Assembly: GCF_041260155.1 (NCBI RefSeq)
Contig: NC_091943.1
Span: 19,832,783 to 19,896,782 of the forward strand
Direction of reading: 5' to 3'
DNA from: Ptychodera flava
Taxonomy: Eukaryota; Hemichordata; Enteropneusta; Ptychoderidae
DNA: 64,000 bases
Positions within the stretch are counted from its first letter, which is position 1. Every line of letters begins with the position of its first letter. Below, piece after piece: positions 15,351-63,719 of the stretch. The notes under the pieces were generated by a model. It had not been told where the DNA came from and searched no databases. It was given only the letters and a program-made list of their open reading frames with translations. Position numbers and translations under genes: made by a program.

Positions 15351-16199
15351 AACATTGTGCATGGTACCGTCTTCATTGACCTTGATGGCCATTTGCCTCA
15401 AGTTGGTCACTGTAAAGATTACGCTTACATTTTAAATTTGTGATTTGTCTTCATGAGAGAAAATGCCGAGAGAGTTTGACCGGTTGACCTCGCTGTTAAT
15501 TTTATGCAGGAAATTACAATAACAATGCTTGGTCGAATGACGCAGTGCCTTGAGGGTGGGATCACCAGTGGTATATGGGGAGGAGTACCTTCCCGATGGT
15601 GATAAGTGGTGCAGATTACCGTCGCCTAGGTGACTGGCGTATACGCGTGCCAAAAGACACCTATGGTTGATTTCCTGTTGACCAGTCGGATGGCAGAGTT
15701 GCAAATACCTGGACTGAACCATTTGGTTTTTTGTGGGTGTCGGTGGTACTTTGACAATATAAGTAAAAATGCACATATATTGAGTTTATTGTCTTGTTTA
15801 TGAGCGGCCAGTATTTCCAACAGCATAAATTGTGTGCATTTGCCCTTGAAGGAATAACAATTTTCGAATAAAACATCGCGAATGTAACTACATTCCTTAA
15901 GCTCGACGTACGCTTAAGAACCATGAAATCGCCCGACTTTCGATTGAAGAGATGAGTTTTGCCAAACCGCGTATACAGAAAAAGTGGCAGATGACTTTAT
16001 TTTTAGAATCATAGACAGTATAGCGAGATGTAAAAAATGTGAAACAGCTCCCCACCTAACTATCCTAAATGTTTTTGTGTCGAGTTTGTGTTTGATTCGT
16101 TTCGAAAATGTGTTCCTACATTCTTATCCGATTGTTTGTGTTAATGAAATGTTTGTTTCGCTTGGATATTTGTAGAAGGTTTGGATTAGTGTGTACGGT
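15351..16199. other. Intergenic stretch without recognised gene
   Basis: Several overlapping open frames of 60-115 codons on both strands have no recognisable motif or splice structure. Confidence 0.45.
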
Positions 16200-17200
16200 A
16201 ATGTTTTTGTTTGTGTGGGGAAAGCTTATGGCGAGACGCAGCCTGACCTATGTTGTTACAAAAGTTGATAGAGTCGCCCTTTGACGCTTGCGTTTCGAAA
16301 CCCGAGTGTGGTTTCTCATCAGTCGCAGTGTAGATTCTTTCCTTAGTTTGTGTTTGTGAAAATTTATTTTAATGCATTTTAGTGGTCTTGCTTTCCGATT
16401 AGCGAGGCAAGTATATTAATTTTGGTCACGTTGTGAGTCCGTTTGGTGGTTCGGTTTGTTTTTCTATATTTCTTTACTTCGGTAAATTTGTTTTGACTGA
16501 TGTGTCTTTTAGATTTTTGCGGAGGTTTGTGAATTTTTAGGCAATAAGTACCACTGCGGGTACGGATTTTATGTTTATTGGATCAAGATACTTACAAGTA
16601 TCCTGGTTGATGTGCTTGTTCTCGTACATTTTAATTAATAGTTCATTACTTTGTTTACTGTTTGTTCTGGCTTGTTGTGTATAATACTGAGTGTTACGTA
16701 ATTGCCTTTCGCATTCGAGTACGTAATCGTTTGTGTTGACAATAACGAAAAACTGACCCTTGTCGAAGGGTTATTTTCCCAAAATTTGTCCAATGTTTGC
16801 AAGCTGGTTTATCGCGATTCTTTTGGCACGCGACATGTTTTGTTTCCTTGTTTGAAAGGGTATCTCTAGAAGTGCGAGTTTAGCAGCTTCAGATAGCTTT
16901 CAAGTTTTTGTTTTTTTGTTGTTCGTGAGTCCAATTTGACTTTTCTTTGAATGGTGTTGTTGCGATTGTTTGTGTCTCACGATGTAGCGTAGTCACATTA
17001 TACGACTTTATTTGTTGAAATCCTGAGGTGGTTTTATTCTGTTTGGTTTTGTTGGTGTCCGAATGAATTTTAAGGCTTTTGCCTAGTACTATTTTTCGGA
17101 GTTTCATAGTTTGAGCGATGATAGGTTGTTGTTGAATTTCATGTTGTTGTCGGCTTTTCTTTGGAAATAGCTGATTTATTTCCACGGCCATGTTTTCTGT
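16200..17200 (-). mobile_element. Decayed Penelope-like retroelement fragment
   Basis: Read on the minus strand, the region encodes scattered pieces of a Penelope-type reverse transcriptase. A DKGQFFVIVN block corresponds to the family's DKG-x-VV motif and is followed by ECERQLRNTQYY (the family's RQL..T.YY). A YLLPK block corresponds to the YLLPKIHKP signature at the start of the RT. The frame is broken more than once, so it is not functional. A 100-codon open frame at 16889-17191 forms the upstream part. The segment that should hold RT motifs C-E and a GIY-YIG nuclease is missing or unrecognisable. A hammerhead-like core lies at its 3' side, as is known for this family. Confidence 0.65.
16283..16322 (-). 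ncRNA. Hammerhead-ribozyme-like core (type I, short helix III)
   Basis: On the minus strand, CTGATGA (16322-16316) is followed by a perfect 6-bp helix II (GAAACC / GGTTTC, 7-base loop). Then come GAAA, a 3-bp helix III closed by CAAG (ACG-CAAG-CGT), and the cleavage triplet GTC. This order and the very short helix III match the type I hammerheads reported in Penelope-like elements. Helix I could not be paired convincingly, so this copy may be inactive. Confidence 0.6.
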
Positions 17201-17335
17201 TACTGTGATTGTTTATTTTGTATTTAATGTTGTGTTTCAGTTGTTTGTTATGTGTACGATTTTTGTTATTTCTTTTAAGTGTTTGTGTGTTCTATGTCAT
17301 CTTATCGTATTTTTGGTAGTTCCCTTTTTGGAGTA

Positions 17336-17362
17336 TTTGGTGGCCCTGAAAAGGGCCGCTTG
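17336..17362 (-). promoter_or_regulatory. Histone-mRNA-type 3' stem-loop
   Basis: On the minus strand, CCAAGC is followed by GGCCCTTTTCAGGGCC and then ACCAAATA. The 6-bp stem, TTTC loop and flanking A/C residues agree with the metazoan replication-dependent histone 3' stem-loop recognised by SLBP. No histone reading frame was found upstream on this strand, so it may be a relic, a chance match or part of a transposon. Confidence 0.5.
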
Positions 17363-18023
17363 GTATGGGTTTTTGTTAGAGCTTGGCGCGTTTGTTTTGC
17401 CGATAAGCCTAGCTTTTTATGCTTCTTTTCGCCGATTCGATGTGCTTGGTGAGTAGGTGTTTGCCGCCTTCTTGTCACCGTGTGTGCTTACATGGACAGT
17501 CTGCATAGCCCTTGAATGTGGTCTCGATTTGATCAAACTTACAATTTAGGAGTATATATCAAAACTGATAAATGATTTATGTGATTACTGTAGCTATAGA
17601 TAGGCTACACTCAGGACGGGCAGCGACGGGCAGTAATTAGTAGGCAAAACAGGTGGTTTTTCACCGTGGGCAGAACTCGGTGCAATGATACTGAACATTA
17701 ATAGTAAGCCTGTCACCTTGAAGGTAATGCTGTAGGTGAAACAAGGACACACGATGGTACAAACAACACCACAAGTGAAACGTACACACAGAAATACACG
17801 CGTTCCTACGTTGTGCCCACCCGGGCCACGCGATTAAAATATGACTGATACTGCTGGATAGTGTTAATTGGGTCGGTAAACAGTCAATTAATAGTTTAAT
17901 TGACTACCTGGGTGATTGGCAGGTCGTGTCCAACGACGCATATGCAAAGCAGGCCAAAAGACAAAAGCCCCCAAAGTTATTGACAGCTGGCCAGGGGTCA
18001 CCATGAATACGTAATGAAGCTTC
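17363..18023. other. Intergenic stretch without recognised gene
   Basis: I looked for a histone coding sequence here on the minus strand and recognised none. No other feature was seen. Confidence 0.4.
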
Positions 18024-18044
18024 ACTACGCAGAAACTGCGTAGT
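18024..18044. repeat. Perfect 9-bp stem hairpin ACTACGCAG
   Basis: ACTACGCAG-AAA-CTGCGTAGT is a perfect short hairpin. It lies about 20 bases beyond the stop of a 55-codon minus-strand frame (18063-18230) of unknown meaning. Confidence 0.7.
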
Positions 18045-18844
18045 CAAGCCCTTCTTAACCGGTCAAACTCTCTCGGCATTTTCCGGCATGTTTAACGTGG
18101 GTTTGGACATTTCAGTATTATTTCTCTTTATCAGTTGACCTAATTTTTGTATTCCCTTCATTGACTTTAATGATGAGTCCCTCAAAAGGGAGAAGTCAGA
18201 ATCGTGAGTCAAGTGTTGTATTGACTCCATTTGTGTGTGATCCGGCGTTTGTGCTGCCAAAACTTACCCATCCCTGATCGGAGTTCTGGATGCTTAGCAT
18301 TTCTGTGTTGGGACGTGTTTCAAGCCCACGCTTGTGCTCTATTTCTCAATGTTAGAAATATTTGTTGTGAAAGCTATTTTAGGAAATGGAAACGTTTATG
18401 TGTAGTGCTTAACCTTTTACTGATTTCATGTTTTTCAACACTGAGATCAGTTGCCCCAACTTTCGGTTTTGATAGTCATCTTCATTTGAACAATTAAAAA
18501 AGAATAAAAGAATTAAAAGGCATAAAAAAACAGTTTGATGTTAGGATTTTGAAGTGGTGTCTTTATTTATTTTTCAATCCCATCATATTCTTGGCCCCTA
18601 GACTGAGCGCAGGTATATATCTCCACTATATTTGGATTTGACCTGATGATCGGACCAGTTGATTTCCTTCAGGGCCAGTGATTTTTTAAAGTTACTGGCC
18701 CGCTGGGCCAGTAGAGATTTTGCATGAGTTTCGCACACTGCATGACAAAGACGTTTCGGATACTGATCGAACGTAATTACGTGTAACTAAATCTCTCGAG
18801 TGTAGCACCCCCTGAAACGGATGACGTATCCCTTAAAAGTAACA

Positions 18845-19163
18845 ACCAATCAGAACATTTCGTGATAGGTCAATGTGGGTCATGTATGATAACAGCGTTT
18901 CCTAGCTGACACTGCTCCGAAAACACAGCTTTTTCATGGACTTAACAGAGAGATTTTGGATATTGGTGTGATTTTTCATGAAGTTGATGAACTGGAGCAT
19001 CGATCAACCCCAATAAGCAAGTTGTATTTGAGATAAAAGAGGGCGAAACCGTCTGTTGAAATTTACTCGGGCTCCGTGCATGGCTGCCGCTGTTACACAC
19101 CTTTTGATTTTTATTGTATCAGTGGCGGCTAGCGGTTCGCCTGCATTGACTCTAGAGCCTGTG
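18845..19163 (+). repeat. Right copy of inverted promoter/exon duplication
   Basis: Matches the reverse complement of 12891-13228, including CCAATCA, the TATA-like GAGATAAAAGAGGG and the signal-peptide exon. Similarity ends abruptly after GAGCCTGTG. Confidence 0.85.
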
Positions 19164-23241: not shown

Positions 23242-24381
23242 AGCTACTATAGACTATAGTCTATAGAAGCTATTGGGATGGGTATCCGTCCGGCGTCCGT
23301 CGTCAGTCTGTATGTATGTATGTATGTATGTATGTATGTATGTATGTATGTATGTATGTCCGTTTGTGAGGCGTCCGTCCACTCAAATATCTTGAGAACC
23401 ACAGTACTTACTGATTTGATATTTGTTGTGTAGATGAAAAATATGATTTTGAGAAACTATTTTTTTTAATTTTTTTATATACTTGAAAATAGGCAAATTA
23501 ATGCCAAAAAAGGCGTTTTTGGTAAAAAATCTTCTTCTTCATAACCACTGGTCAGACAGCTTTGTTATTTGGTATACAGGTCCCTAGGGGTAACCCAACT
23601 TAGATTGTTCAAGTTGTGATGAAATATGCAAATCTGTATTTTTAAGGAATTTTTTTGTCATTTTTGGTCAAAATTTGACTTACATTGTGTGTAATTCTTG
23701 TACTGTATAAACCCTATCAATTCACCCAGAAAAAAATAATTAATATGATTTTAAATAATTGAATAATTAGGAAATCATCAAAGCCAAAATAATTTTATTG
23801 TAGAATTATCAGAAAGTTCAACTTTTTTTGACAGTTCATAGTGAAATGCTTACCATCTTGGAGGATTAAAACATGTAAAGGCAACTTTCCTGAATCCCAA
23901 CTTTGACATATTCTGAACTGTCATATATTGTGTCCTGTATGTTTAATATCTAAAAGAAATTGCTCAAAATAGTCAATAGAGATAGAGAAAGTTCTAATTT
24001 CCATTTATGGTTGACTTGGTAAGGATAAAATAAAATTACTTTTTGAGGAAAAAAATAGAGTGGTCAATTAAAAGAGTGGTCAAAGTGATAGGGTTTTTCT
24101 GGTAAAGCTAGGCTGTAAGATTCCTCATGTGCTATTTATAGCAATTATGCAATCTGTGTAAACAGTGCAATGAAAGTTACATGATTCCTTATAATGCTTT
24201 TGATGACCTTGAACTTCTTAAGTTTCAAACAGTTGTCTCTTCAGTGTGCTTTCTCTGAGTATGTACAGTCTCAACTTATTCAACAGAACTTACTTACAAT
24301 GTTAATTTGAAAGTTAAAATGTGCTTGGTTAATAGGATGAAAATACTGATACTTAATTTTGTATCCATGTCTATAGTAGCT
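23242..24381. mobile_element. 1.1-kb non-autonomous element with AGCTACTATAGAC ends
   Basis: The left end AGCTACTATAGAC and right end GTCTATAGTAGCT are exact inverted repeats 1.14 kb apart. Just inside the left end lie GGCGTCCGTCG modules and a (TATG)n tract. The interior is AT-rich and non-coding. The superfamily is not assigned. Confidence 0.55.
23309..23358. repeat. (TATG)n microsatellite
   Basis: Perfect tetranucleotide run inside the AGCTACTATAGAC element. Confidence 0.97.
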
Positions 24382-25589: not shown

Positions 25590-26831
25590 ACTGTGAGGTA
25601 TGTAGTAAGAGTGCCTTCAACAGCATACTCCGAGTTCCAAAACCGAGTCGGACTTACAAGTCCGAGTACTTGGACTTGCATACTCCGAGTAAAACTGCTT
25701 ACTCGGACTTGTATACTCCGAGTACATGACCTACTCGGACTTGAATACGTCGAGTTACACTTGCTTATAGAAAAAAACAATGCTGGAAAAAACACAGGAA
25801 CAGCGTATACACTGCAGTGCATTTCCAGTCGCTCAGAGAAAAGAGTTGTTAACGCAATCTGTCTGACCTCTGATCCGATCTGTGTATCTTGTACAACACG
25901 CTCAAGTCATCGTCGAGTGTAGCTACCGTCACGCAAATTATGAGTTTGTCTTGTCTTTTCGTTTCATTACCGGATCAGATCCTGATTGATACATGACTTG
26001 AATTGGGCACAAAAACGTTTCAAGATCACCGCGATGCAGCGCGGCAAGTTATTAGAACACGGACGCCATAATTGAATGACCTGTCGACCTGTGACGTCAT
26101 GGCCGTGGTTTGCTGGCGTAGCGAGGCCATGATAAACTTGCCCAAGCATTTTAGGCATATTATATCTTGATAAAATAATTAAACTAGTAATTTTTCAAAA
26201 TAAAATGAGCACAGTGCGCTCGTCTATGGTATGAACCGAGTGCGAGTGACCACTTGGTCGTAAATAATGACCTGACTTGACCTGTGATGTCATGCATTGA
26301 TTTAAGTTCGCTGGACCGATTGTGATATCGAACTGAGTAACTGACTGGACTTGCCTGAAATTTATTGGTTTTTAATGCAAATGTTACGTCTAAGTCATCT
26401 TTCAAAAACTTTGCCGCCGGCCGTGGCAGTAGCTTTCTTCTGAGGGTAAAATCACGGTCCCGGTCCCTCCTTGTGGAGGGACCGTGGTTAAATATACATT
26501 GCGCAACAGATTACAAGACATCGTGAAAATGATTTTTTTTTTCAAAAGAGCAGATTTTCGACATATCGATCCGCGCTAGCCGTAAACTCTGTGAGTAATA
26601 AATACTTTTTTCGACAGATCGTTTCTTGTCCGGCATGGCAAAATATGCATTTATAGGAACACGTATTACTCGGCGTATTCAAGTCCGAGTAGGCCATGTA
26701 CTCGGAGTATACAAATCCGAGTAAGCAGGTTTACTCGGAGTATGCAAGTCCGGGTACTCGGACTTGCAAGTCCGACAGGGTTTTGGAACTCGGAGTGTAT
26801 AGTTTGAGATACTCCTACATACCTGGGACTG
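25590..26831. mobile_element. Foldback element with modular TACTCGGACTTG arms
   Basis: Arms of about 180 bases (25590-25775 and 26650-26831) are inverted repeats that begin CTGTGAGGTATGTAG / CAGTCCCAGGTATGTAG. They are built from repeated TACTCGGACTTG and CATACTCCGAGT modules. The roughly 870-bp interior has no recognised gene and holds one CGGTCCCTCC palindrome (26461-26484). Confidence 0.75.
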
Positions 26832-28978: not shown

Positions 28979-29197
28979 TTGGTAGTTGTGTGTGTTTCTT
29001 CTGAGGACAGCGAGCAGGACAGAAGTTGCAAGGGTGGTGCCTTTATTCGGAGACACTTGCCATGGGATAGAGAGAGAAGTGAAACTACGTACATTATGGA
29101 AAAACACTTGCATCAAAGGAAATGCATATTGAGGCTACCTTGCATTGAGGGCGTGGCCCCAATCAGACCAGAGCCTGAAGATGAGGATGGTGGGCCA
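28979..29197 (+). pseudogene. Open-frame remnant with an LPW..E-type motif, ended by an insertion
   Basis: The frame encodes an acidic stretch, then IRRHLPWDRERSE, LHQRKCILRLPC and RPEPEDEDGGP. The spacing of LPW, a basic helix and RP-x-P-x-D resembles a C-terminal motif of a large invertebrate family of zinc-finger/P2X7-tail-like proteins, but I am not certain. It stops being native at 29198, where an RSS-ended element begins. Removing that element and one target copy gives an immediate TGA after GGP. Confidence 0.3.
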
Positions 29198-29814
29198 CAC
29201 AGTACTAGAGATTTCCCACAATACATCATGATTTGTACCAATGTAGATTCCCCTGTGAAGTCTACCATGTCTCCCATGTGTAGACAAATTCCTGGACCAC
29301 GTGTAGAAATTCTGAGAACGTACTTTATAAAACACCTTTCTTCTCAATTCCCATTGTAAAGGATTAAGAAAATTGTGCTTGATTGAGAGAAGAGAAAGGA
29401 TTTTTGTAAATTTTCCACTGATTGTGTCCTCAGCCATACAGAATAAAGTGATGGAAAGTAGGGAGAATTGTTGCACCTGTTTTATGAAACGAAAGGATAT
29501 TGATTTTTTCCAAATAGAAAAGACAAAAGAAATTTACATGCTAACTATTTTCAGAGAATGACCCCTTCAGTTGGTAATAACTTGCTTCCCAAAACTGTGA
29601 CATTTGTAGTACCTGAAGAATGTGACTTTTGTGGTTATTTAATGGTTTCTTTGAAATTTATACTGCAATATTTCAACGTACTTTTAATAAATATAATTAA
29701 TCAATTATCGTGAGACTTCACATTATTGCTTTTATGCAGAACTGAAAAAGTTACAAGAAAACTAACGTCGTTGGTACAAATCGAACAGCATTGTGGGTAA
29801 TTGATTGTACTGTG
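29198..29814. mobile_element. RSS-ended non-autonomous transposon (Transib/RAG-like ends), copy 1
   Basis: 617 bp. Ends are inverted repeats of about 45 bases starting CACAGTAC, with shared inner blocks CCCACAAT and GATTTGTACCAA. The 5-bp direct duplication GGCCA flanks it (29193-29197 and 29815-29819). A second copy at 62304-62915 is similar along its length. No transposase frame. A CACA-type terminus plus a 5-bp GC-containing duplication is the combination known for Transib/ProtoRAG transposons. Confidence 0.8.
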
Positions 29815-31031
29815 GGCCATGAGCCGTTATACAGACAAATGACAATATCAACAGCGCTGACAACTCAATACAGGACAATGTTAATGTATAAGCATATGTT
29901 TTTGCATTTTCTTGATTCTGCTAAAAGCTCAATGATGCATTTTTAGTTTTGAACAAAGACCACTCAACTTTTGAATTTTATTTACTAGATACAGGCTGTA
30001 CTCATGTTATTACACCGACGAGTCATAAACAGTGATTATTTGTATAATTGTATTTTTTGGGAATTTTTTCTATTCTTGGTCAAGAAAGCTTCTCTGAGAC
30101 CACAACTCCAATTGATTTGAAAGTTGGTGTGGAGGTTTTTAGGGTACAGCTCAGTAAGACTGTTTCAAATTGTGGTGAAGTTTGCATAATTGTATATTTG
30201 GCAAAATTTTTACCATTGTCTTTTGCCAAGTCTTTTTTTTTTAAATCGCTGCTACAATTGTACAGACGTTCAATAAATGACTTGAAATATTGGTTTCAAA
30301 AAGTCTGGTTATATTATTGTTTGTGATTTTTTTTCAGAAACCGCAGCTTTTGTTTAACACATGTGTCAATTATTGTAAATATTTCATTGGATTAGTATTA
30401 TTCAGTGAATAAAAAGGACATTATTTTTTAATTGCATAACAGTTGTATGAACTTAAATTGTTGATGTGTGTAGTGTAACATGTGAGTATGAGTAAAATGA
30501 AAGAATACTAGTATATCATGAGAATACCGGTAATACATTTTAATCAATAATGGTAGATATTGTGCATACCATCCTATGGCAATATGCCTGCACATAATTC
30601 TGTAAACACAAAATGGAAGAATGCAGAAAAGATATTAAATATCCGCGCTGTACATATATATCAACTTGGTCCTGTTTGTTTCCCCATAATAGAACTAACT
30701 GCCCCATATCTATTTCTAAGCATGTCTATGCATCATTACCAGTGTAATTGTTGATAATTGCACTGAAGTAAGGCCTTTTGAAATGGATCTGTCAAAAATA
30801 ACATAAAGGATACAGAGCGCATGTTTAGAAGCAGAATACAAGGTTATTTTGGTATACAATTATGAAAATAAAATGATGAAACAGTACAAAATGTGCAAAA
30901 GGTACAGGTTACTGTTTCAAGTAAATATCGATTCATGAGAAATTCAAAAAATTAAAAGGAATGACAGCAGAGCAGTGATATTTTATTCGATTTCACGCAA
31001 GGTACCATGGGAAAATTTAAGGCAAGAGGGT
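29815..31031. other. Intergenic stretch without recognised gene
   Basis: AT-rich, short open frames only. Confidence 0.4.
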
Positions 31032-34207: not shown

Positions 34208-36110
34208 TAGTCGGGTCGGAAGGTAGGGTTCCCATGCACCCCATGGATGTATTTTTTAACCTACATTTTTGTAATCCTTAGGGTCTATATTTAATGAATT
34301 TTGATGTTCCCAAAATCAAATCGTGTCCCATGGGGTTCATTTGGCGCCATCTTTGCCGCCATCTTGGCCGCCATCTTGGATTTCAACGATGGGGTAGGGG
34401 TCACGTATCTACCGCTCGACGGAAACAGAAACAATAAAATACTATAAACGTTACATTTTTAGAAAGCCAAGATCATGGCCTTTTCATTGATATATAACTT
34501 AATAGGGATTAATTAATATTCGAACGTCAATTAGACTTTATATCGGTCATTGGCCGATAAATCGTAAAATTTGCGAAATTTCACACGCAATAATTAAGTT
34601 CCCGTTCCTCCAAACAATTTTTCATAAGGTATTTAAATATTTTTTGGAAGAACTCAGTGCAATAAACAAGAAAACAACATTAAAAGTATGTGTCTTGAGA
34701 TTTAGTGGGTGCATGAGCTTGTTTTCTTATTACGCGGTATGCCATATATCCGTGTGTAACATAAGGGGTAGGGGTAATGTTTCCCTTTCTGTTTCGAATC
34801 ATGAATGATGAAACCATAAAAATGTTACATTTTTTGAAAGTGCTGCATCAGACCTTTCTAAAAATATATAGATTTATGGGGAAAAATTGCATATTAAAAA
34901 GTTACAAAGCTTAAACCTTTCGGTTTGTGTCGATTTTAAGTGATTTTTTAAGAACGAAATTACAACATATGGTGTAGGGGTAATGTTTCCCTTTCTGCCT
35001 CGAACCATGAATTACGAAACCATATAAATGTTATACTGTTTGAAAGCTCTGAAATTGGCCTTTCCAAACATGTATAGTTTTATTGGGAAAAGTCCATATT
35101 TTAAAGTTACAAAGCTTATGCCTTTCAGTTTGTGTCAAATTTAAGTGATTTTTTAAGAACGAAATTACAACATATGGGGTAGGGGTAATGTTTCCCTTTC
35201 TGCCTCGAACCATGAATTATGAAACCATATAAATGTTATACTGTTTAAAAGCTCTGAAATTGGCCTTTCCAAACATGTATAGTTTTATTGGAAAAGTCCA
35301 TATTTTAAAGTTACAAAGCTTAACCTTTCAGTTTGTGTCAATTTTAAGTGATTTGTTACAAAGCTTAAACCTTTCGGTTTGTGTCAATTTTAAGTGATTT
35401 TTTTAAACAAAATTATAATATAAGGGGTAGGGGTAATGTTTCCCGTTCTGCCTTGAACCATGAATTATGAAACCATATAAATGTTATACTGTTTGAAAGC
35501 TCTGAAATAGGCCTTTCCAAACATGTATAGTTTTATTGGGAAAAGTCCATATTTTAAAGTTACAAAGCTTATGCCTTTCAGTTTGTGTCAATTTTAAGTG
35601 ATTTTTTTAAACAAAATTATAATATAAGGGGTAGGGGTAATGTTTCCCGTTCTGCCTTGAACCATGAATTATGAAACCATATAAATGTTATACTGTTTGA
35701 AAGCTCTGAAATTGGCCTTTCCAAACATGTATAGTTTTATTGGGAAAAGTTGCATATTTTAAAGTTACAAAGCTTAAGCCTTTCAGTTTGTGTCAATTTT
35801 AAGTGATTTTTTTGAACAATATGCACAAAACAGTTAGTCCGTTGGCCAGGTATCGAAATCATCCCCTCTAAGGCATTTTACCCACTATAATTTTCTGTTA
35901 GCTAGTATTCTCAGCTGTCATAATCTGTTTATTTTCCATTTAACTGATGGTGTGTGAGAGTGTAACGACTTGTTTTGTGAAGGGCTGTCACGCCCTCCGT
36001 AGTAAAATAGGAATGGGTTAGGGGTAACATATTTACCGCTAGTCGGAAACAAAAACAAAAAAGTACCATAAACAATACATTCTTAGAAAGCCCAGATATA
36101 AGCTTTTTAC
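34208..36110 (+). repeat. Left inverted arm with ~200-bp tandem units
   Basis: GGGGTAGGGGTAATGTTTCC recurs at about 34774, 34973, 35177, 35424 and 35627. Units also share CATATAAATGTTATACTG and GGCCTTTCCAAACATG. Confidence 0.85.
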
Positions 36111-36133
36111 TTTTTTGATAATTATTCGACTTT

Positions 36134-36188
36134 AGATGGCGCCAATATTCCGTATGTACATGGCGCCATATTCCGTATGTACATGGCG
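36134..36188 (+). repeat. 23-bp tandem duplication
   Basis: GGCGCCAATATTCCGTATG plus TACAT is repeated directly as GGCGCCATATTCCGTATG plus TACAT, just inside the left arm. Confidence 0.85.
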
Positions 36189-39100
36189 GTCAGCAGCTGA
36201 ATCATTCACATAACAAACGTTGATATGGCCTGAAACTTCGGTAAATTCATTCAAGCAAACTCTTGTTTGATTAAGTTGATAGTTTTCCTTTCTTTTTATT
36301 TCGAGTATTTGCCATGGCATGACTGAAACGAACCTTGAAACGAAGGCTGTACGTATCTATATTAGTCCGAGCCTGAGCGTGATCTGAGAGCAAACAGATC
36401 CGCAGATAATGCGAACGATCGCAACCGTTACCAACAGCTCATTATGCAGAGCCATGCCCCAAAACGCCCAACCATACTTGGCACTAATCATGATCCCAGT
36501 CCATTTCGAGCCGGGCTTTAAGGGAAGTGCAGTGGCCTTTGAAAGACCCTTTGGTTTGGTTTTGTACCGTAGTATGAAGAAAACCCGACCTGTCGTCGTT
36601 GCTGTGAATGTTTGTGTTGTTTTTAGCCTCTTTTATTGCCTATTTGAAGAATCGTCTTTGCAGCCTTCCATCCTGCGTTCTGTGTAGCGAGTGTCTTCGA
36701 TCGCTCTCTTAAGTTTGTGATGTACAACTGTCTTGAGTCCCGGTGCTTTATTGGGTGTAGAGGTAAATAGTTAGAGATCAGGGTGATAAATTGGTTGCCG
36801 CAGTGTCTTTCCAGGTGTTGCCACTTTTGAAGGATTCAACACTCGGTATTTTGGCCTGGTAAGTATTCTTTAAGGTGTACCTGTAGGCTACGTGGTACTG
36901 AATAGGGGCCACTTAGGTTTCAACACATTCGATACTCTTGGCTTTCGCTTATACCCCGTTGTATGAGTAACTGGGATCGGAAATGGGAAAGGCTTAATTA
37001 ATATCCATCTTTGCTATAATTAATTCTCGTTTGGCTTACAGATGGCCACCTCTACTTGTTTTCGGTGAAAATTTGACTTTCAATTGGACAAAACATTGAG
37101 TATGACTTTCTTCTGTGTGTTATTTAGGCCTATGAAAAATATGAAAATTGCATATGTATTGTTGTCAAATATCTCAAATCTTAGATTGAAGAGATAGGCT
37201 TAGGCTTCCCTGTAATCATACAAATGAGTTAAATGGGAATTTATTGGAGTAGATTACAGTAATCGAAGAGAATGGTTGACACTATAGAAAGACTTATCTC
37301 GGATTGCGGGGACCTAACTATAAAAGAACAGCACAGAATACTTGCCGGATGTATTGACTGTTCATGTATAGTACAGGCTAGTACAACATGGAATGTAAAA
37401 CATACAAATCAAAGAAGTGGCAAATTTTCTCAACTTTTCACAAAGTTTATATTCCATCATTACTATCAGGATTAGGATTTTCCCAATCTATAAATAAGCT
37501 ATTACTTGATTACACCTTGATTCAGCATGACTAACATTTTGCATTTGCCACGCAACCATGCAGCCATGCCCGTTCCTGGGATCGCGAACAATGCCTTTAA
37601 CGAAGCTTTTGAACGCTTTTTGTGAATTGTGTAAGAATGTCCTCTCTGTGGAGTATAATGTGTGAAGCCGTTGTCTAGCTCGCTTGACTCTGATGATTAT
37701 GTTGATTATTTTTTCTCAGCTGCTGGTGGCTGATCTAGCTCGAAAGTTAGATCAATCTAGTCTCTCTGATTCGATCATGCTGGTGGGAATGGTATCTTCA
37801 AGCATTGACCCTAAAACGTCCGTTTGTAGGGTCTTTGCTTCAAAGACGTCAGGGTCTAACATTGTTAAATGTCATCCATGATAAGAAACTAATGATAGAT
37901 TCACTCACAAGGCATTTTAAACATTGAGGTGTCAATGGGAATATAAGCCTTTTTAGTCATTTTCTGAGGTTTGTCTCGCCTTCTTATTGCTTGGTGTAGA
38001 GAGTGTTTGTTCGCCTTCTGTTTACTATTTAGTTGCGTAATTTGAATGCGTTCTGTGACATTTGGCTTTTCGGGTTTTAGTTCCAGAATTATTTTGCTAT
38101 TGAATTTTAGTACCTAGTCGAAAATGTAATCCCCCTTGGGAGTATATAGTGTTCTGCGTTGTAAAATAATTTCGAAAAATTGGTTATGATCTCTTGTTTT
38201 TCTGTAAGGAAGGTAAAGTGTTGTCGATCCATCTTATCTTATTATGGAGAAGCTATATTGTGGATTAATGGTGATTGGTTTTCAGCGATAAAAGATTCTC
38301 TCGTGTTCCCGTGTGGTATTAAAAGTAACACTATTAATAGTGAGCTCTGATTTGCCCAGACGGTCACGTGACTGTGCATGTATTTACGATATACTGTAAA
38401 GTTGGCATTCCTATCTCCAAAGTGGGTTTCTTTCACATTGTTTGTATTTTCATCACAAGTTTCAATATACTGATATAATATAGCGATAAACAACCCCTAT
38501 AAGTTGGGTACACCACTCGAGCTCGGTTTTGACCATTTCACTCCTTATACACACGACTGAAGTTCGTGCGTATATGTTGTTTACCGGTCGAAACCGTGTG
38601 GTATCCTTTCAAAGTGGTGCTTTATTGCTTATATATCTCTCGCGATACAATTAAAGAAAAGGGATTGATTGTTGCTGCTGTCATATCAACTTTGCATGAC
38701 GACTATGACATCCAATTTAGTGTTTGTGGGTTTGGAATATATAATTTTTGACATATTATAGCTGTTAACTTTCTTTCCCTAATTTGAGTTATTGAAATGA
38801 GTAAAACGTCTTTTATAACCACTATTTTAGCTTTTTAGTGCTATTCAATGCTATAGAGTATTTTTCTATGTTCCTTTTAACAAGTAAATGTCAGTAAAGT
38901 AACACAAACTTTTGAGTTTAGGCATTGTCACTGCATCATTTTTGAGTTTACCCCATCAAGCCATATCTTGTTGGAAAAACAACTGCGTTAGTGTTTAGAG
39001 AGATGATATTTATGTGGCTTCCTTATTCGCTGCGTTTGGTAGGAGAGGAAACATTACCCATACCCCTATCCCTTAAATGTATATTATAGAGGGATGTACG

Positions 39101-39359
39101 GCATACCATATATTAGGTAAACAATCGACGCACCCCATAAGTCTCAAGAAGATACACTCTTTTAATGATTTGACTTCTCTATTGCATTAAGTTCTTTCAA
39201 ATGATATATAAATACCTTGTAAAAATTGTTTGGAGGAACATGAACTTAATTATTGGGTTTGAAATTAAGCAAATTTTACAATTTACATTTCATGTCCGAT
39301 ATAAAATCTAATCGATTTTTGAATATCGATTTATCCCCATTTAGTTGTATACCAATGGT

Positions 39360-41199
39360 AAGGGGATTATCTGGGCTTTCTAAGAATGTATTGTTTATGG
39401 TACTTTTTTGTTTTTGTTTCGACTAGCGGTAAATATGTTACCCCTAACCCATTCCTATTTTACTACGGAGGGCAGTGACAGCCCTTCACAAACAAGTCGT
39501 TACACTCTCACACACCATCAGTTAAATGCAAAATAAGCAGATTATGACAGCTGAGAATACTAGCTAACAGAAAATCATAGTGGGTAAAATGCCTTAAAGG
39601 GGATGATTTCGATACCTGGCCAACGGACTAACTGTTTTGTGCATATTGTTCAAAAAATCACTTAAAATTTACACAAACTGGACGGCTTAAGCTTTGTAAC
39701 TTTAAATATGCAATTTTCCTCCAATGAAACTATACATGTTTGGAAAGGCCAATTTCAGAGCTTTCAAACGGTATAACATTTATATGGTTTCATAATTCAT
39801 GGTTCAAGGCAGAACGGGAAACATTACCCTACCCCTTATATTATAATTTTGTTTAAAAAATCACTTAAAATTGACACAAACTGAAAGGCATAAGCTTTGT
39901 AACTTTAAAATATGGACTTTTCCCAATAAAACTATACATGTTTGAGAAGGCCAATTTCAGAGCTTTCAAACAGTATAACATTTATATGGTTTCATAATTC
40001 ATAATTCGAGGCAGAAAGGGAAACATTACCCCTACCCCATATGTTGTAATTTCGTTCTTAAAAATGACTTAAAATTGACACAAACTGAAAGGTTTAAGCT
40101 TTGTAACTTTAAAATATGGACTTTTCCCAATAAAACTATACATTTTGGAAAGGCCAATTTCAGAGCTTTTAAACAGTATAACATTTATATGGTTTCATAA
40201 TTCATGGTTCGAGGCAGAAAGGGAAACATTACCCCTACCCCATATGTTGTAATTTCGTTCTTAAAAAATCACTTAAAATTGACACAAGCTGAAAGGCATA
40301 AGCTTTGTAAGTTTAAATATGGACTTTTCCAATAAAACTATACATGTTTGGAAAGGCCAATTTCAAAGATTTCAAACAGTGTAACATTTATATGGTTTCG
40401 TAATTCATGATTCGAGCAGAAAGGGAAACATTACCCTACCCCATATGTTGTAATTTCGTTCTTAAAAATTACTTGAAATCGACACAAACCGAAAGGTTTA
40501 AGCTTTGTAACTTTTACTATGCAACTTTTCCCCATAAACTATATATTTTTAGAAAGGTCTGATGCAGCACTTTCAAAAAATGTAACATTTTTATGTTTCA
40601 TCATTCATGATTCGAAACAGAAAGGGAAACATTTACCCCTACCCCTTATGTTACACACGGATATGTGGCATACCGCGTAATAAGAAAACAAGCTCATGCA
40701 CCCACTAAATCTCAAGACACATACTTTTATGTTGTTTTTCTTGTTTATTGCACTGAGTTCTTCAAAAAATATATAAATACCTTATGAAAAATTGTTTGGA
40801 GGAACGGGAACTTAATTATTGGGTGTGAAATTTAGCAAATTTTACGATTTACGGCCAATGGCCGATATAAAGTCTAATCGACGTTCGAATATTAATTAAT
40901 CCCTATTAAGTTATATATCAATGAAAAGGCCATGATCTTGGCTTTCTAAAAATGTAACGTTTATAGTATTTTATTGTTTCTGTTTCCGTCGAGCGGTAGA
41001 TACGTGACCCCTACCCCATTGTTGAAATCCAAGATGGCGGCCAAGATGGCGGCAAAGATGGCGCCAAATGAACCCCATGGGACACGATTTGATTTTGGGA
41101 ACATCAAAATTCATTAAATATAGACCCTAAGGATTACAAAAATGTAGTTAAAAAAATACATCCATGGGGTGCATGGGAACCCTACTTCCGACTAGACTA
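39360..41199 (-). repeat. Right inverted arm with ~200-bp tandem units
   Basis: Reverse complement of the left arm, with the unit motif GGAAACATTACCCCTACCCC recurring at about 39810, 40018, 40223, 40424 and 40626 (some copies one C short). The arms differ by scattered substitutions and small indels, so they are not freshly copied. Confidence 0.85.
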
Positions 41200-41983: not shown

Positions 41984-44900
41984 TTACAAATCGCTAGTAT
42001 CGACAATAATTCGAAGAAAAGCCACATCCTGCTTGACATAGGCATTATCGCTGCCATCAAGTAGGTTAAGCGGTAGAAAGAGAGGACAGCCAGACGCGAT
42101 ATTTAGATCACTGGTCGGGCGCTGGAAAGAACTGGAATTTGGATCTGGCCGAAATGCATCGATCATATGCTCCTTGTTGTTCTGGTCGATCCACATAAAC
42201 GTAACTTTCTGCCTGAATGGCCATCTTAAGATGGCGTCGTACTCTCCCTTCATGATGACGAAGAAAAGTGAAACGTGGTTTCCTTTTCCCATACCATCAC
42301 CGTTGAGATACACCCTGGCGCACATCTTGTAACCGAATCGACTTGTGAAGAAGTAAGGAGAGTATAGCGATAACGTACGGCCTGATATAGCATCTCGTCT
42401 CTTCCTTGCGAAGTCGGTTATTTTCCACGTTAGGACCCCGTCATAGCTTGCCATTTCTAAGGACTGTATGCGAAGATCATGTTCGGCGAGCGTAACGTCT
42501 TTCAGTGCCATCACCTTATCTTGTGCCTTGAGTTTGTTCATCATTGCTTCGAGACGTTCTTTAAACCGTTTGTCTTCTTCCATCGCTGCCCGTATGGCTG
42601 CTGCCAATCTTTCTACCTCTCTGCTCAAGACAGCGACCACGCCCTCGGAATTTGTCGCCCTTGTTTCTAGAACATCGATTTTGTTTTTTATCTCCACTGC
42701 TATGTTTTTAGTTTTTCCAGCTGACGAGGTACGCTTTCCGAATCTTCCAGCGCCGGAGAATGGGTCGCTCTCTCGTTCACTTTCTTCAAATCATTCTCAA
42801 GGTCTTTTACGCGAGCTTGTAGAATTTCGACTGAGTTCTGATGTTGTGTAACAAGCGCGGTCGTTTTGTTGATATGTCGAGTATTTCTTTTGTAACTCTC
42901 AGAAAATGACTTTACTTTGATCGTCTCGGTTAAAAGTAATTGCATGTGCACTTCCACTGCTCCATCACCGTGTTCTGCCTCTTTGCCACGCTCAACCTGA
43001 CAAAATAATTTAGATCAAATTGGTTGATTTTAATGACAAAAGCAACGGGATTTAAGGACAAAGTAAGTAATGATCCCTGTTACCCTGTAATCCCGGTTCG
43101 TAAAGCCTGCGTAAACGATTGCTGTCATGGAAACCGGACGCTTAAGCTCTTGCACAATTACTGGTTGATGATCTTATTATAGTTAAATACCGAGTCCTGG
43201 GACATATTGAATAACGAATTTCATGTTCCCGTTATAAGAATTAATCGCAAATTATCTACATCTTTATCAAACATACATGACTATGGACGTAGTTATAACA
43301 GGAAACTTAAACTTGCTCAATAATATCATTAGTTGACAAAGTACATGTATCTTTGTTAAGATAGTACACACACCAAACTGAAACAAATCACACCATTCCC
43401 TAAGTCTTTCGAAATTAAGAATAGATAACAAGAGTCACCTTGCAAACTTTGACACCAAAGAACAATTTACCAATATTTTCTGAAAATTGAAATTTCAAAA
43501 TGGCCACCATCCTAATGTTATGGCAAATTTTAATTTTCAAAAAACTAAGCCGAGGAAAAATTACCCACTCCATGACCTTCAAAATGAGCGTCTGTAAACG
43601 GTAGGCCAAAGAATATTTTAAAGTTCGAAAGTCTGAATATCTGTCCCCTCCCTTAATGAGGTAAGTGAATGCCATTGGGCGTTTAGCTTCTTGCTGTTAT
43701 AATACATTACAAAGTATAAATGGAGTAAACAAAGTGACTTAATGGGGACACTAGCTTCTAGGGCACGTTTTCTTAAAAGGGACCATTTCAAACTCTATCT
43801 TTAGAAGTGCATTATGAAATATAAATAAAATTAAATATGTAAACCTGACTTGATCACTGTCAATTCTAACAACAAAGCGTAGTATTATATGACTTGAGTG
43901 GTTGTGCAGCAGTGGTTACGCTGCTTTATTGTCTACCAGGAATCTCCTTTCTCTGATATCTGACTTTGTATTTAGTCACAAGGAAGAGTACTGATCTCAG
44001 CTAGTTTGCATCTATACATACCGTTTCATTACAGCCAATTTTATGGAACTTGCACCACTCTCGATATCGTGCGCAGTCGCCTCTCGAAGGATCTGTGTGT
44101 TCTTGCAGCTGATACATGAGACATAAGAGATAATATATTTAAATATCGCTGACGTTAGTGACGATAATTGTTTACGAACAGTGTCATCTATAAGAAGACA
44201 ATAATGGATTGAAAAGTCAAATCTCACATGCCATGAACAAAGGTCACAAGGTCACAAGATCAGGTCTTTACATTTCTTACTATTGTACGATTATTGCAAG
44301 ATTAATGCTGTACATATGGAATATGCGTTACACTGCAGTTACCATCTTAAGAATTCTCAAAAGGGACATGATAGAAAACAACACGACTTAAGAGATAGTC
44401 AGGCGGAAAGAGAGGTTGAGATGCAATAGTACAAGGAGGTCAGACAGAAAGACAGCCAACGTCACCAAGAGATACTGAGAAAGGCAAGGTAAACCTGTCA
44501 GAGAAGTTGGGGAAAGTGTGACGCTAAAAAGTGGTGATGAAGTTACTGAGGAGAGTGGGAACGATAAATTTACAAGTTGATGACTAACTTTCAACAGACG
44601 AAAAATAGTTTTGACACCATACATTAAAAACGTGCAGAGCGAAAAAAGGCAGAAAATCTTCAAAACTTGACTCACCTTATCTCTTGGGAGTTGTTTGAAA
44701 CAGAACTTGCAAGTGATGGGAAACTTGGCGCACTCTCGTTCATGAATCTTAAAAGAAGCAGTAAGGAGAAATCAGTGCATTAACGACTCGTGTTAACTAC
44801 CTATCAATCAAGTGATACGCAAAATACAAATGTTGAGCTAGAACAGGTAGATAAACTGAAAGATCCGTCGCTCGGGGGCGCTCTCTAAGCCCCCCCACCC

Positions 44901-47900: not shown

Positions 47901-49986
47901 GTGAGAGATCATGTATTAATGTATACACAGAGAAAGAGATGTAGATGCATTGCAAGGGGCCATCATGAAGTCTTGTCGCTATGAATACTATGAATATCGC
48001 TGGAAAACCCACTTGCACTCTTGTTGTCCTAACGATATTTTATAACTCAGGCAAAGCAAAATAAGAGTAATGTTCCACACAGAAAGACCCGAAATAATTA
48101 TCTAACCGTTTTTTGCTACATTCTTAGATTACTTACCAATGTCTTCGGGGACAGATATTCGTTCTCTGAAATTTTTACAATTTGTTTTGGATCTACCACT
48201 TGTGGTGGCTCATTTAAAATATCTTGGAGTAAGAAAAATTTTCACCGTCTTTGTTTTTCTGAAATGGAATTTGTTCCCCGAGAGTTAACACCGGAATGGG
48301 GGCAGTTTTGAATTACTAAAATCGGTAAAATTGAAGGTAAGTTATGTCAGACTCTAGTATTCTTGATTTTCGTAAAAGGGTGTTTAAAGTTTCAATGAGG
48401 AAAATTTTAGCAAAAATTAAGCAAAAGCTAGTCTTCCAAATTTCGAGGTGCGAACTACCGTGCATGTCTATGCTATGGAGAGGGAAAACAGGTGAAAAAT
48501 AACGCTGACGGCATCCCCTACATTGGATGTTCGCTGCAACATTCTTTCGTACGAAGTACCTCCATATCAATATGGATTTCAGGTGGGAGGGTCCCTAATG
48601 GAAGAAAAGTTTTGCGCATTTGATCACTTGCAGAAAAATGTTAACTGAAAAGAAGTAAGTAGTCATCCTTCCAAATGAAAAATGGAGTCGAATTAGCAAT
48701 GTCTCAAACATTCAAACTCACCGTATCAGTTCGAATAACCATGTATTCTGCCTGTGGGTCTTCTTTAGAACATTCTGGACAGTAACCACTGCCTGTTGCC
48801 CTACGAAAATAGTCGAGCCTTGTACTTAGATGGAATGGCAAATATTGCAAGATGGTCACACAAATACATACATACATACATACATACATACATACATACA
48901 TACATACATACATACATACATACATACATACATACATACATACTTTCACACATACATACATACACACATGCATACATACATACATACATGTATGCATGCA
49001 TGCATGCATGCATGCATGTATGTATGTATGTATGTATGTATGTATGTATGTATGTATGTATGTATGTATGTATGTATGTATGTATGTATGTATGTATGTA
49101 TGTATGTACGTACTTACATGTATGTATGTATGCATGTACATACATACATACGTACGTGCGTTCGTGCGTGCGTGCGTGCGTGCGTGCGTGCATGCATGCA
49201 TGCATGCAGGCAGGCAGGCATACATGCATGCATGCATGCATACAGGCAGGCAGGCAGGCACGTAGACAGGCACATACGTCCGTCCATCCATCCAACCAAC
49301 CATCCATCCATATATCTATTCATCCCTCCATCCATCCATCCGTTCAAACATCCATCCATACATGTATGCGCATGCATGCATCCACCAATCCATCCACGCA
49401 TCTCAAAGCAATGAAGTATCGATATGGCGAGTACTATGAGTTAATACCAGTATAAGTTTCTCAATAGTCCATGTTATGTCTTTCTGGTCAGATCGCTTGT
49501 AAAGTTTGACCTTCTAACAATGAATTTTGCTTCCTTTTTCAGGTTTGACAATTTAAGCTTACGTATACGGCATTTTTGTTGAGTTTAATGCATTTTCACT
49601 TTATGAAAAGGATGCTCAAACTTAACCATGACATTCATTACATCGATAAAGATAAGCAAATGAAAGCGAAATATACCCCTCCGTTTGCAAGTAGGTTGCC
49701 CCTTTCAATTCTGAAAATTACTACTTTGTCGGGGAATCTACGCGTTCGTTATGACCGAATATATTATTACTGTGAAGATGATAATCTACCCTTTTTATGA
49801 GCAGAACAATCAAAAGAGAAACGAAAGGGCTATATACCTCAGAAGTTCTTCAACGCAGCTGACACAAAATCTATGTCCGCAAAAGTTTTGTCGAGGATCT
49901 CTCAAAATAAACTTGCAGTTTATACAAGTATACTTCTCTGCTTCATCTTTTCGTCGTATCAATGACAGTGTAGAATAGCCAGTCAT
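41984..49986 (-). CDS. TRAF3-like RING/zinc-finger/MATH adaptor, copy A, with two frameshifts
   Basis: Minus-strand exons: 49986-49838, 48800-48722, 47745-47647, 45317-45156, 44747-44676, 44108-44023 and 42996-41984. Borders are GT/AG with matching phases. Exons 1-2 form a complete C3HC4 RING (residues C21, C24, C36, H38, C41, C44, C57, C60; CGHRFC visible). Exon 3 carries VYQDFAIKREMKSLLTKC and the first TRAF zinc finger, exons 4-6 further zinc fingers, and exon 7 a coiled coil and a MATH domain (KMCARVYLNGDGMGKG, ending VDTSDL). The total of about 553 residues matches TRAF3. Such proteins bind receptor tails through MATH and act as ubiquitin-ligase adaptors. Against copy B it lacks one base in exon 6 (near 44040) and one in exon 7 (near 42705), both in A-rich runs. 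Either it is a young pseudogene or these are sequence errors. Confidence 0.85.
46216..46394. mobile_element. pogo/Tigger-like MITE in TRAF A intron 3
   Basis: The ends CAGTAAACCCTCGCTCTAA and (reverse complement) CAGTATAATCCCTCGCTCTA are inverted, about 179 bases apart, and flanked by TA. Both have the CAGTA...CCTCG pattern of pogo/Tigger elements. Confidence 0.7.
48862..49398. repeat. Compound tetranucleotide array in TRAF A intron 1
   Basis: (CATA)n runs 48862-48942, then mixed TACA/GCAT, (TGTA)n about 49017-49120, then CGTG, GCAT, GGCA and ATCC tracts. The CATA and TGTA blocks are reverse complements and could pair. Long open frames on both strands are repeat artefacts. The array starts about 60 bases upstream of the exon 2 acceptor. 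Confidence 0.95.
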
Positions 49987-57740: not shown

Positions 57741-60538
57741 TCACAAATCGCTAGTATCCACGGATATACGTAGGAATGCGACATCATCCTTGACGTAGGC
57801 ACTGCGGTCGCTATCGAGTAGGCTAAGCGGTAGAAAAAGCGGACAGCCCGAAGCAGTATTGAGATCACTCGTCGGCCGCTTGAAGGAACTTGAATTTGGA
57901 TCCGGCCGGAAAGCATCGATCACGTGCTCTTTGTTGTTCTGGTCGATCCACATAAACGTGACTTTCTGCCTGAATGGCCATCTTAAGATGGCGTCGTACT
58001 CTCCCTTCATGACGACAAAGAAAAGGGAAACATGGTTTCCTTTTCCCATACCATCACCGTTGAGATACACCCTGGCGCACATCTTGTAACCGAATCGACT
58101 TGTGAAGAAGTACGGTGAGAATAGCGACAGCGTACGGCCTGATATTGCATCTCGTCTCTTACTTGCGAAGTCGGCTATTTTCCACGTTAGGGCGCCACAA
58201 TATCCAGCCATCTCTAGCGATTGTATTTGAAGATCATGTTCAGCGAGTGTAACATCTTTCAGTGCCATCACTTTATCTTGTGCCTTGAGTTTATTCACCA
58301 TTGCTTCGAGACGTTCTTTATCCCGTCTGTCTTCTTCCATGGCTGCCCGTATGCCTGCCTCCGATCTTTCTACCTCTCTGCTCAAGACAGCGACTACGCC
58401 CTCAGAAGTTCTCGCCTTTATTACCAGGGCATCGATTTTGGTTTTCATCTCCATTGCGGTGTTTTCAGTTTTCTCTAGCTCACGATGTAAGCTTCCCGAA
58501 TTTTCCGGTGCTAGAGAATAGGTTGTTTGCTTGTTCGCCTTCTTCAAATTATCATCAAGGTCTTCTACACGAGCTCGTAGAATTTCGACTACGTTCTGAT
58601 GTTGTGTAACAAGCGCTGTCGTTTTGTTGATGTCTCGAGAATTTATTTCATATCTCTCAGAAAATGACTTTACTTTGATCGCCTCGTTTAACAGTAATTG
58701 CATGTGCACGTCTATCGCTCCATCACCGTGTTCTACCTCTTTGCCACGCTCAACCTGTCAAAATAATTTTGATATGAAATGTAAGTTTCCATTGTCATGG
58801 CAACCGGACGCTAAAGCTCTTGCGCAATTACAGGTTTGTGATCTTATGATGATTAAATACGGACCCCACAGACATATTCGATAAAGAATTTAATGTTTCC
58901 ATTACAAGAATTTTATCGCGATTGATCTACATGTTTATCAATCATACATGAATATGGACGTAGAATATACATGTGTGTTACAATAGGAATTAGAAAATGT
59001 CTTGTGTCGTGACAAGTAAAGTAGCTGTTACTCTATTCTACCGTCTGGTATAAATCCCCATCCCCTGATATCCGACTTTTTATTTAGTTCCTAGGGCAGG
59101 GCACTGGTCTCACCGAGTCTGCATGAATCAATACCTACCGTTTCATTACAGCCAATGTCATGGAACTTGCACCATTCTCGATCTCTTGCGCAGTTTCCTC
59201 TCGAGCGATCTGTGTGTTCTTGCAGCTGATACGTTGGACATAAGAGATAATATAATGTATTGCAAACAACGTGTGTGTCGTTTAGATGAAAACAGTAGTG
59301 GGTTGCAAAACAGTTGTATAACCTGTTACATATCTCTCATGCAATAAACAAATGTCCTCACAAGGCAACATATCTTTACATTCATTACTATTGAAAAGAT
59401 GAATGCTTTTAATACGTATGACGTGCACCTCACATTCCACATGTTGAAGTTACACTCTTGCTCGTCTGAGTCAAGTGTAGGTGGACAATCTTAATGCCCC
59501 TTTAAAGGGACTAGGTAGAAAACGAGTCGACGGAAAGAGAAATCGAGACGCGATGGTACGGATATAGGAAAGACAGCTAACATGATATGACAGATACTCA
59601 AACAGGCGATGCAAAAATGTAAGCGAAATGGAAAATTGCGCGACGCGAAATAGGTGGAGATGAAGTTACTAAGGATAGGTAGAAACATGAAATATACTAC
59701 AATAAAAATCTATGTAACTGTTGATTAACTAACTTTCAAAGACAACAAAGTTCCAATACTTTCGACACTATACATTGAATATATACGAAAAGAAAAACTC
59801 TGCAACAAAAATCTAAAAAATAAAGTAACTCACCTTATCTCTTGGGAGTTGTTTTAAACAGAATCTGCAAGTGACGGGAAACTTGGTGCATTCTCGTTCA
59901 TGAATCTTAAGAGAAGCAGTAAGGAGGCGAAATCAGTGCATGAGAAACTTATATCCGAGTCAACTGCATATCAGTCAAATCATATGCAAAATACATGAGA
60001 GTGTTGAGCTGGAACAGGTGGAAGACTGAAGATCCGTCGCTCGAGGGCGCTCTCTACCCCCCCCCCCCCTCTAAAGGAAGGGGGCGTAGAGAGCGCCCGG
60101 ATCTTTCAGTCTGTTAGGTAGACAATAAGACAAATTCGTGGATGAATCCTACACTTTATTATAGCACTACCTCTGTATAGTATACACCCGTGGGCAGTTT
60201 AACTGTTGATTTCAAAATTGGAGAAGGATTTTCTTACGAATATGCGACATGCATTCAAACACACCGATGCGCTAAACAACTAACCAAACAGGTTAGGTAG
60301 GGAGTGAAGAAAGAAAGACAGGGAATCAATGTGCATACTGTGTATATGTAGTTGTCAAAAATTGAAGTCAAAATACCTTAATTTCTTTAAAAATTACCAT
60401 TGTATCGCAGTGTTCACAATTTATCAGTCTCATCACACAATCTATCTGTATATGTCGTTTAAGATCTCGTCTTTTCATTCGCTGTGTGCATCCACTGGAA
60501 CATACCATCTCAGCGTATTCACACTCTAGTTCATGATT
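57741..60538 (-). CDS. TRAF3-like adaptor, copy B, last four exons (5' part outside window)
   Basis: Minus-strand exons: 60538-60377 (54 codons, zinc fingers, HELECEYAEMVCSSGC), 59905-59834 (24 codons), 59225-59139 (29 codons) and 58754-57741 (337 codons plus stop). All are phase 0 and open. The last exon holds a coiled coil of about 140 residues (HMQLLLNEAIKVKSFSERYE and on) followed by the MATH domain (KMCARVYLNGDGMGKG, FRPDPNSSSF, ending VDTSDL). This predicts trimerisation and receptor-tail binding. It is a tandem paralog of copy A 15 kb away with homologous introns, but without A's frameshifts. No counterpart of A exon 3 was found before the homologous intron resumes at 62231. The RING exons would lie beyond 64000; CTCAC at 63995-63999 could be the donor of exon 2. 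Confidence 0.9.
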
Positions 60539-62054: not shown

Positions 62055-62303
62055 GTCGTCACCAGGCCTTTTTTTTTCAATGTGAACACTTTTATATGCA
62101 TATTCACTTTATCAATATCTTAGCGCCGCAAGATAAATTCTCTATACAAATCAAAAAAATTAAAGCTGCAAGCAGAGTTGATTGTATCCAAGCAGTTAAC
62201 AGCAGAAGTAGAGAGCAGTAAAAATTAAGTGCCTTTAGGTAGAACGCGTCTTGGGGACAGATACTCTGGATCTAACATTTCTACAATTCTTTCTGATCTA
62301 CCA

Positions 62304-62915
62304 CACAGTACAATAATTACCCACAATTCTCTTTGATTTGTATCCTTGAAGGTTACTTTTCTAAAAACTTTTTCAGTTCTGCATGTAAGCACTAATATGC
62401 AGCATCAGAATAATTGTCACATAATATCAAGTAAAAGTACGTTTAGATATTTCAGTGAAAGTTTCAAAATAACCACAAAACAACCATACAAGTCACATTC
62501 TTTAGGTACTACAAATGCCTCGTTTTTTGGGCAGCAAGTTATGACGAACTGAAGGGGTCATTCTCTGAGAAAACTTAGCATGTAAATTTCTTTTGTCACT
62601 TCCATTGCAAAAAATCAATATCCTTTTGTTTCATAAAACAGGTGCAACTAGTCTCCCTACCTTCAATCACATTATTCTGTATGGCTGAAGTGGCAAATTT
62701 TATAAAAATGCTATCTCCTCTCTCATGCAAATATGCATAATTTTCCAAATTATCTAAAATGAGAATTAAGAAGAATGGTGTGCATAAAAGTACGTTTTCA
62801 AAATTTTGATAAATAGTCTGTGAATTTGTGTACACATGGGAGACATGGTAGACTTCACTCAGGAATCTCCGAGGATACAAATCATAATGGATTATGGGAA
62901 ATATAGAGTACTGTG
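62304..62915. mobile_element. RSS-ended non-autonomous transposon (Transib/RAG-like ends), copy 2
   Basis: 612 bp, inverted relative to the 29.2-kb copy. The ends start CACAGTAC with inner blocks CCCAnAAT and GATTTGTATCCT. TACCA is duplicated on both sides (62299-62303 and 62916-62920). The homologous intron of TRAF A (48194-48198) has a single TACCA with no insertion, an empty-site control. No transposase frame. Confidence 0.85.
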
Positions 62916-63719
62916 TACCACTTGTTGGAGCTCATTTTAAAGCTTTTTGAGAGAGAAAAACTTTTACCATCTTAGTTTTTTGAAAATCCGGAATTTTATT
63001 TTCCCCATTGATTTAACACAGATGGCATCCATTTTGAATTTCAAATATCGCAAAATGTTTGGTAGTTGTTACGCTAGTTTCAAACTTTGTGCGGTGACTC
63101 CCGATTTTTATTGTTGATTTGGTAAGAGAATGGTTTGAAGGTTTCGCTCAGGAAATTTTGAGCAAAAGTTGAAGTCTTTCACTTTCGAGGAGCATGCTAC
63201 CTAAAGTGCTTGAAGTGCTGCACAGCACAACTATACTCAATATACAAGTGTACAAGTTTGTAGTTGAATACCTAGCAGCAGGTAAAAGTCACTAAAGGTC
63301 AATCCAAACATTTGGAACAAATTCAGGCACTATATTGGTCCATGTCTAACAGAGAATGGTCCTCTCTCTCCCAATCAGAAACCCTTAAATAAGGTATGAC
63401 ATACTTAATGAGGTATATCAATCATGAATGAGACGACGTGCCACATTCCACGTAATACCAAAGCTGTGCTAGTTGCAATGGCTGAGATCTGAAAAAGTGG
63501 CTCAAAGGTCACCGAAATTCGTCTCCGAAAGTAAGTAAGTAAAGTAATATTGCCCAATGCTGCTCAATATTCAACCTAAACTAGACCTCTACTCCATGTA
63601 GTTCCGAGATACATGAACGTAGCTCAAAGGTCATCCAATGCCATATGCAAAATGTTGGAAAATGTTTTGTTTCATACCGGTCAGTGTTTTTCCAAAACAA
63701 AACCTCCAGCCTTTGCAGC

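Follow-up and report, generated by a model that had tools for sequence, protein, structure and literature searches.

Two copies of a non-autonomous DNA transposon with CACAG ends and 5-bp duplications, and a paralogous empty site, in Ptychodera flava

Two element copies, their boundaries and an empty site

The stretch of Ptychodera flava DNA analysed here (NC_091943.1, positions 19,832,783 to 19,896,782; 64,000 nucleotides, hereafter the window) holds two TRAF paralogues with MATH domains and two copies of a transposable element, A and B, the second of which lies beside one of these paralogues (Table 1). The copies are members of an ordinary family of non-autonomous cut-and-paste DNA transposons of about 0.6 kb. 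They lie in opposite orientations, share 494 of 605 aligned bases (Kimura distance 0.21), and are matched by sequence search with E near 1e-151 and 79 percent identity in an alignment of 624 columns. Both have a low GC content, 33-34 percent. The three stop-to-stop open reading frames of at least 80 residues that overlap copies A and B gave no Pfam match at E 0.1, so the element needs a transposase supplied from elsewhere. Of the 97 such frames in the window, 30 were scanned against Pfam, and two frames with MATH domains were scanned in addition.

All four ends of the two copies open with the same 8 bp, CACAGTAC, and carry a second block, GATTTGTA, from position 33, 33, 33 and 32. Because the two blocks are equally spaced to within one base at every end, the ends are near-symmetric and have no asymmetry of the 12/23 type. 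Between the inverted ends, similarity runs at 6 to 9 per ten columns over about 40-50 bp and fades inward. The window contains six occurrences of CACAGTAC, where 100 shuffles gave 1.71 on average, and four of the six are the element ends; the one at 50757 appears isolated. A profile of the four ends (with positions 1-8, the ATTNCCCA block and positions 33-42) recovers all four at E 3e-11 or better, the next match being a partial one at 6937-6955 with E 0.052, and by this profile copies A and B are the only bearers of these ends within the window. The element copies had no match in collections of viral and prokaryotic contigs (viral_contigs, genome_contigs), a result of little weight given what these collections contain. 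A search of one collection of papers did not find CACAGTAC as the terminal inverted repeat of a transposon.

Each copy stands between perfect direct duplications. Once the ends are fixed, no length among 2 to 9 other than 5 bp fits, and this one is perfect in both copies; random pairs of 5-mers at equal spacing were identical in 362 of 200,000 draws. Copy B taken alone permits a reading of TACCAC with a shared C, and we favour 5 bp given copy A and the symmetry of the ends.

A paralogue of the TRAF region that carries copy B lies at a distance of 14 to 16 kb, and the two regions have MATH domains (Pfam; E 1.3e-43 and 2e-44). Comparison of the two regions by blastn gave one piece pairing 48141-48199 with 62248-62304 (E 3e-5) and another pairing 48194-48324 with 62916-63050 (E 8e-13). 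These pieces stop and restart at the duplication of copy B, where they share TACCA and one further C. The flanks of copy B have 46 identities to the empty site in each 60 bp, and when joined (60+60 bp) they score 56.5 there; the best score among 10,000 positions sampled elsewhere in the window was 3.5. Since flank homology is broken at the duplication and the flank score is so high, the side of TRAF paralogue A is an empty site, holding TACCA once and no excision footprint. An earlier note on this DNA had proposed the two copies with common inverted ends, their perfect 5-bp duplications and this empty site in the TRAF paralogue; the coordinates and ends hold, no other duplication length fits, and both the blastn break and the flank scoring bear out the empty site.

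Table 1. Coordinates in the window of the element copies, their ends and duplications, the empty site and the TRAF paralogues
Feature	Position	Strand	Remark
Copy A, non-autonomous element	29198..29814	+	617 bp
Copy A, terminal inverted repeat	29198..29239	+	starts CACAGTAC; inner limit approximate, about 40-50 bp
Copy A, terminal inverted repeat, other end	29773..29814	-	inner limit approximate
Copy A, left target-site duplication	29193..29197		GGCCA
Copy A, right target-site duplication	29815..29819		GGCCA
Copy B	62304..62915	-	612 bp; orientation opposite to copy A
Copy B, terminal inverted repeat	62304..62345	+	inner limit approximate, about 40-50 bp
Copy B, terminal inverted repeat, other end	62874..62915	-	inner limit approximate
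Copy B, left target-site duplication	62299..62303		TACCA
Copy B, right target-site duplication	62916..62920		TACCA
Paralogous empty site near TRAF paralogue A	48194..48198		single TACCA
TRAF paralogue with MATH domain	41984-42697	-	
TRAF paralogue with MATH domain	57741-58709	-	

The clearly conserved TRAF exons are on the minus strand, and the insertion site lies to their 5' side. Short translated matches of 15 and 18 residues (E 4e-4 and 1e-3) occur on both sides of it, and no RING pattern was found on either strand beyond 40 kb, in a pattern search that a RING split by an intron would escape. Relative to the TRAF gene, the site, which the earlier note placed in an intron, may therefore lie in an intron, the 5' flank or an exon. 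Between the two TRAF regions the flanking DNA has diverged by 0.25-0.27 per site (over 51 and 123 aligned sites), the element copies by 0.21; these figures give no date. Together with the empty site, they make it the simplest reading that copy B inserted after the TRAF duplication. We would picture the insertion as follows: a transposase encoded elsewhere would bind the inverted ends and cut at CACAGTAC, the element would be joined to its target by cuts 5 bp apart, and repair of the gaps would produce the 5-bp duplications; copy B would have landed in this way near one TRAF paralogue once the two TRAF regions had been duplicated.

Which transposase might move the family

The transposase of this non-autonomous cut-and-paste family most likely belongs to the Transib superfamily, to which we give a probability of roughly 0.6; if RAG-like enzymes are included in Transib, we judge such a mobiliser to be likely. 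It is the CAC ends that favour Transib. Published descriptions assign 5-bp duplications and CAC ends to both Transib and RAG-like transposons, and report symmetric ends in most Transib families; CA..TG termini with duplications of 2-5 bp are given for the wider CMCT group, which we also count in favour. To this extent the literature agrees with the earlier note, which took a 5-bp duplication with CACA-type ends as known for Transib and ProtoRAG; the agreement is qualified by hAT5 transposons, for which 5-bp duplications are described as well. As far as they have been described, non-autonomous Transib members resemble copies A and B in their 5-bp duplications, CAC termini and near-symmetric inverted ends, and differ from them in that our element has the heptamer CACAGTA and no nonamer-like block.

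Several observations weigh against a Transib transposase, the shared duplication length of hAT5 among them. The family is known from two copies only, and no transposase with these ends was found within the window. Another element in the same window starts CACAGG and carries an 8-bp duplication, so that no fewer than two kinds of transposon here have CACAG ends and CACAG alone is not diagnostic. After spacers of 20-22 bp, where nonamer-like blocks are described for some Transib ends, the element agrees with the nonamer of the recombination signal sequence (RSS) at just 1 to 3 of 9 positions; we give this point mild weight, and in the account of Hztransib there is little or no nonamer similarity, so that a nonamer is not defining for all Transib. 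Position 7 of the heptamer is A, where the RSS and ProtoRAG heptamers have G in published descriptions, which also record variation at position 7 in other RAG-like ends. A table from a vertebrate RAG screen lists CACAGTAGA (PMC9723617), and an A at position 7 may perhaps be tolerated.

The earlier note had gone further, reading the ends as RSS-like and suggesting that a RAG1-like transposase could move the family. Its heptamer comparison stands, in that CACAGTA matches 6 of the 7 positions of the vertebrate V(D)J signal CACAGTG; the RSS character beyond CACAGT does not, for unlike vertebrate signals the element has neither a nonamer nor a 12/23 spacer pair. The best matches to the nonamer ACAAAAACC were 5, 5, 6 and 5 of 9 at the four ends (spacers 11-13 and 20-24), and 1705 of 5000 random sequences also reached at least 5 of 9. 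The A-rich block at positions 8-10 is missing too, the four ends having CTA, CAA, CTC and CAA against the AAA described for RAG-like (RAGL) transposons (PMC7204232). At the 17 positions of a protostome RAG-like consensus from the same source, the ends match 7, 7, 7 and 8, below the mean of 8.7 to 8.9 for random sequence with CAC fixed. As far as the letters of these ends can tell, there is no specific sign of mobilisation by a RAG1/RAG2-like enzyme. What survives of the suggestion is a non-autonomous DNA transposon whose 5-bp duplications and CAC ends are those described for Transib and RAG-like transposons.

One might nevertheless consider that the copies are satellites of a RAG1L/RAG2L transposon akin to ProtoRAG rather than of a plain Transib. 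Such transposons are described with 5-bp duplications, CAC ends and two conserved blocks per end set apart by a spacer, all of which the element shares, and published non-autonomous elements of this kind come from an oyster and from several deuterostomes. The spacers of ProtoRAG are given as 27/31 and those of our element are equal to within one base, although some RAGL ends are described as symmetric. The absent AAA, the chance-level match to the consensus, a start that differs from the CACTATG of ProtoRAG and the lack of a RAG-like protein among the 30 frames scanned of 97 make this origin very improbable. We would likewise regard as a long shot a divergent RAG1/RAG2-like transposon that drives the family through ends that keep CACAGT and have the near-symmetric GATTTGTA block in place of the A-rich one. 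It is just as doubtful that end recognition, under such a divergent enzyme, would differ from that of ProtoRAG and of the published RAGL ends considered here.

Among transposases outside the RAG-like group, one of hAT5 type, from the hAT lineage with 5-bp duplications, is unlikely but is the rival we take most seriously. It is described as making duplications of the length found in copies A and B. The ends of hAT elements in general are usually CAGNG-like, unlike the CACAG seen here, and we count this against it. Another CMC-type transposon (EnSpm or Chapaev-like) or a Ginger2/TDD element is quite improbable. CMCT elements as a group are described with CA..TG termini in most cases and duplications of 2-5 bp, and the TDD elements of Dictyostelium with duplications of 5 bp; against this, fungal EnSpm families are reported to make 3-bp duplications, Ginger termini are given as TGTNR, which does not fit, and newly found Ginger2 families, including those of animals, have 4 bp. 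That the copies are unrelated stretches of AT-rich DNA whose ends and duplications arose by chance can be practically dismissed. Their low GC content would favour such an accident, but the idea is refuted by the alignment of the copies, their matching boundaries, the duplications at both copies and the empty site.

If Transib is indeed the source of the transposase, one further non-autonomous family is added to it, along with a cleanly bounded insertion beside a TRAF gene that has been duplicated. Only a partner that proved RAG-like would lend the family greater importance, as it would then reveal a different mode of end recognition by RAG-type enzymes.

Possible relics and other repeats in the window

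A third copy was considered at 23400-23707, whose left side has CACAGTAC and whose right side matches the right end of the element over 23 bp (91 percent), and we treat it as unproven. The CACAGTAC on the left sits inside a different local repeat (score 32; the highest of 500 shuffles was 27), just 3 of 5 positions are the same in the 5-mers on its two sides (AGAAC, TAAAC), and the interior alignments, at uncontrolled scores of 51-52, are AT-rich and inconsistent in orientation. The four-end profile, taken up to E 100, does not report 23684-23706. When the copies were masked, the two best weak blastn matches, of 35.6 and 33.7 bits, exceeded the best of 20 shuffles (31.0 bits). They probably correspond to the 23-bp match (91 percent) to one element end at 23684-23706, possibly a relic end, and to 1000-1040, where 41 bp weakly resemble the interior of copy A (80 percent), possibly also a relic; because both stand above the shuffles, old relics of the family may persist in the window.

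The survey of other repeats took in 20 of the 35 families of direct repeats and 25 of the 340 pairs of inverted ones. A scan for paired ends with duplications, considered to 34.4 kb (150 of 878 entries), required 10 exact end bases and is blind to the family of copies A and B. At 12892-19163 lies a 6,272-bp element with inverted arms of 295 nt that are 99 percent complementary, a start of CACAGGCTC and an 8-bp duplication, AGCTGAAC; no Pfam match was found in the 8 frames scanned of its 11 of at least 80 residues. An element of about 7 kb at 34223-41185 has inverted arms of 334 nt, also 99 percent complementary, with TA at either outer edge and, within both arms, arrays of repeats about 204 bp long; all six overlapping frames of at least 80 residues were scanned and give at most one Pfam match, below the cut-off. 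The shorter structure at 25605-26818 has 169-nt inverted arms that are 85 percent complementary and hold repeated CTCCGAGTA motifs, and its 4 frames gave no Pfam match above the cut-off. Neither a transposase nor a RAG-like protein was seen among the 30 scanned frames, and their below-cut-off Pfam matches were to GAE_BBS1, PMG, USP32_N and DUF7334 (E 0.017-0.049). A frame at 4058-4369 matches Pfam DUF6973 with E 6.9e-18.
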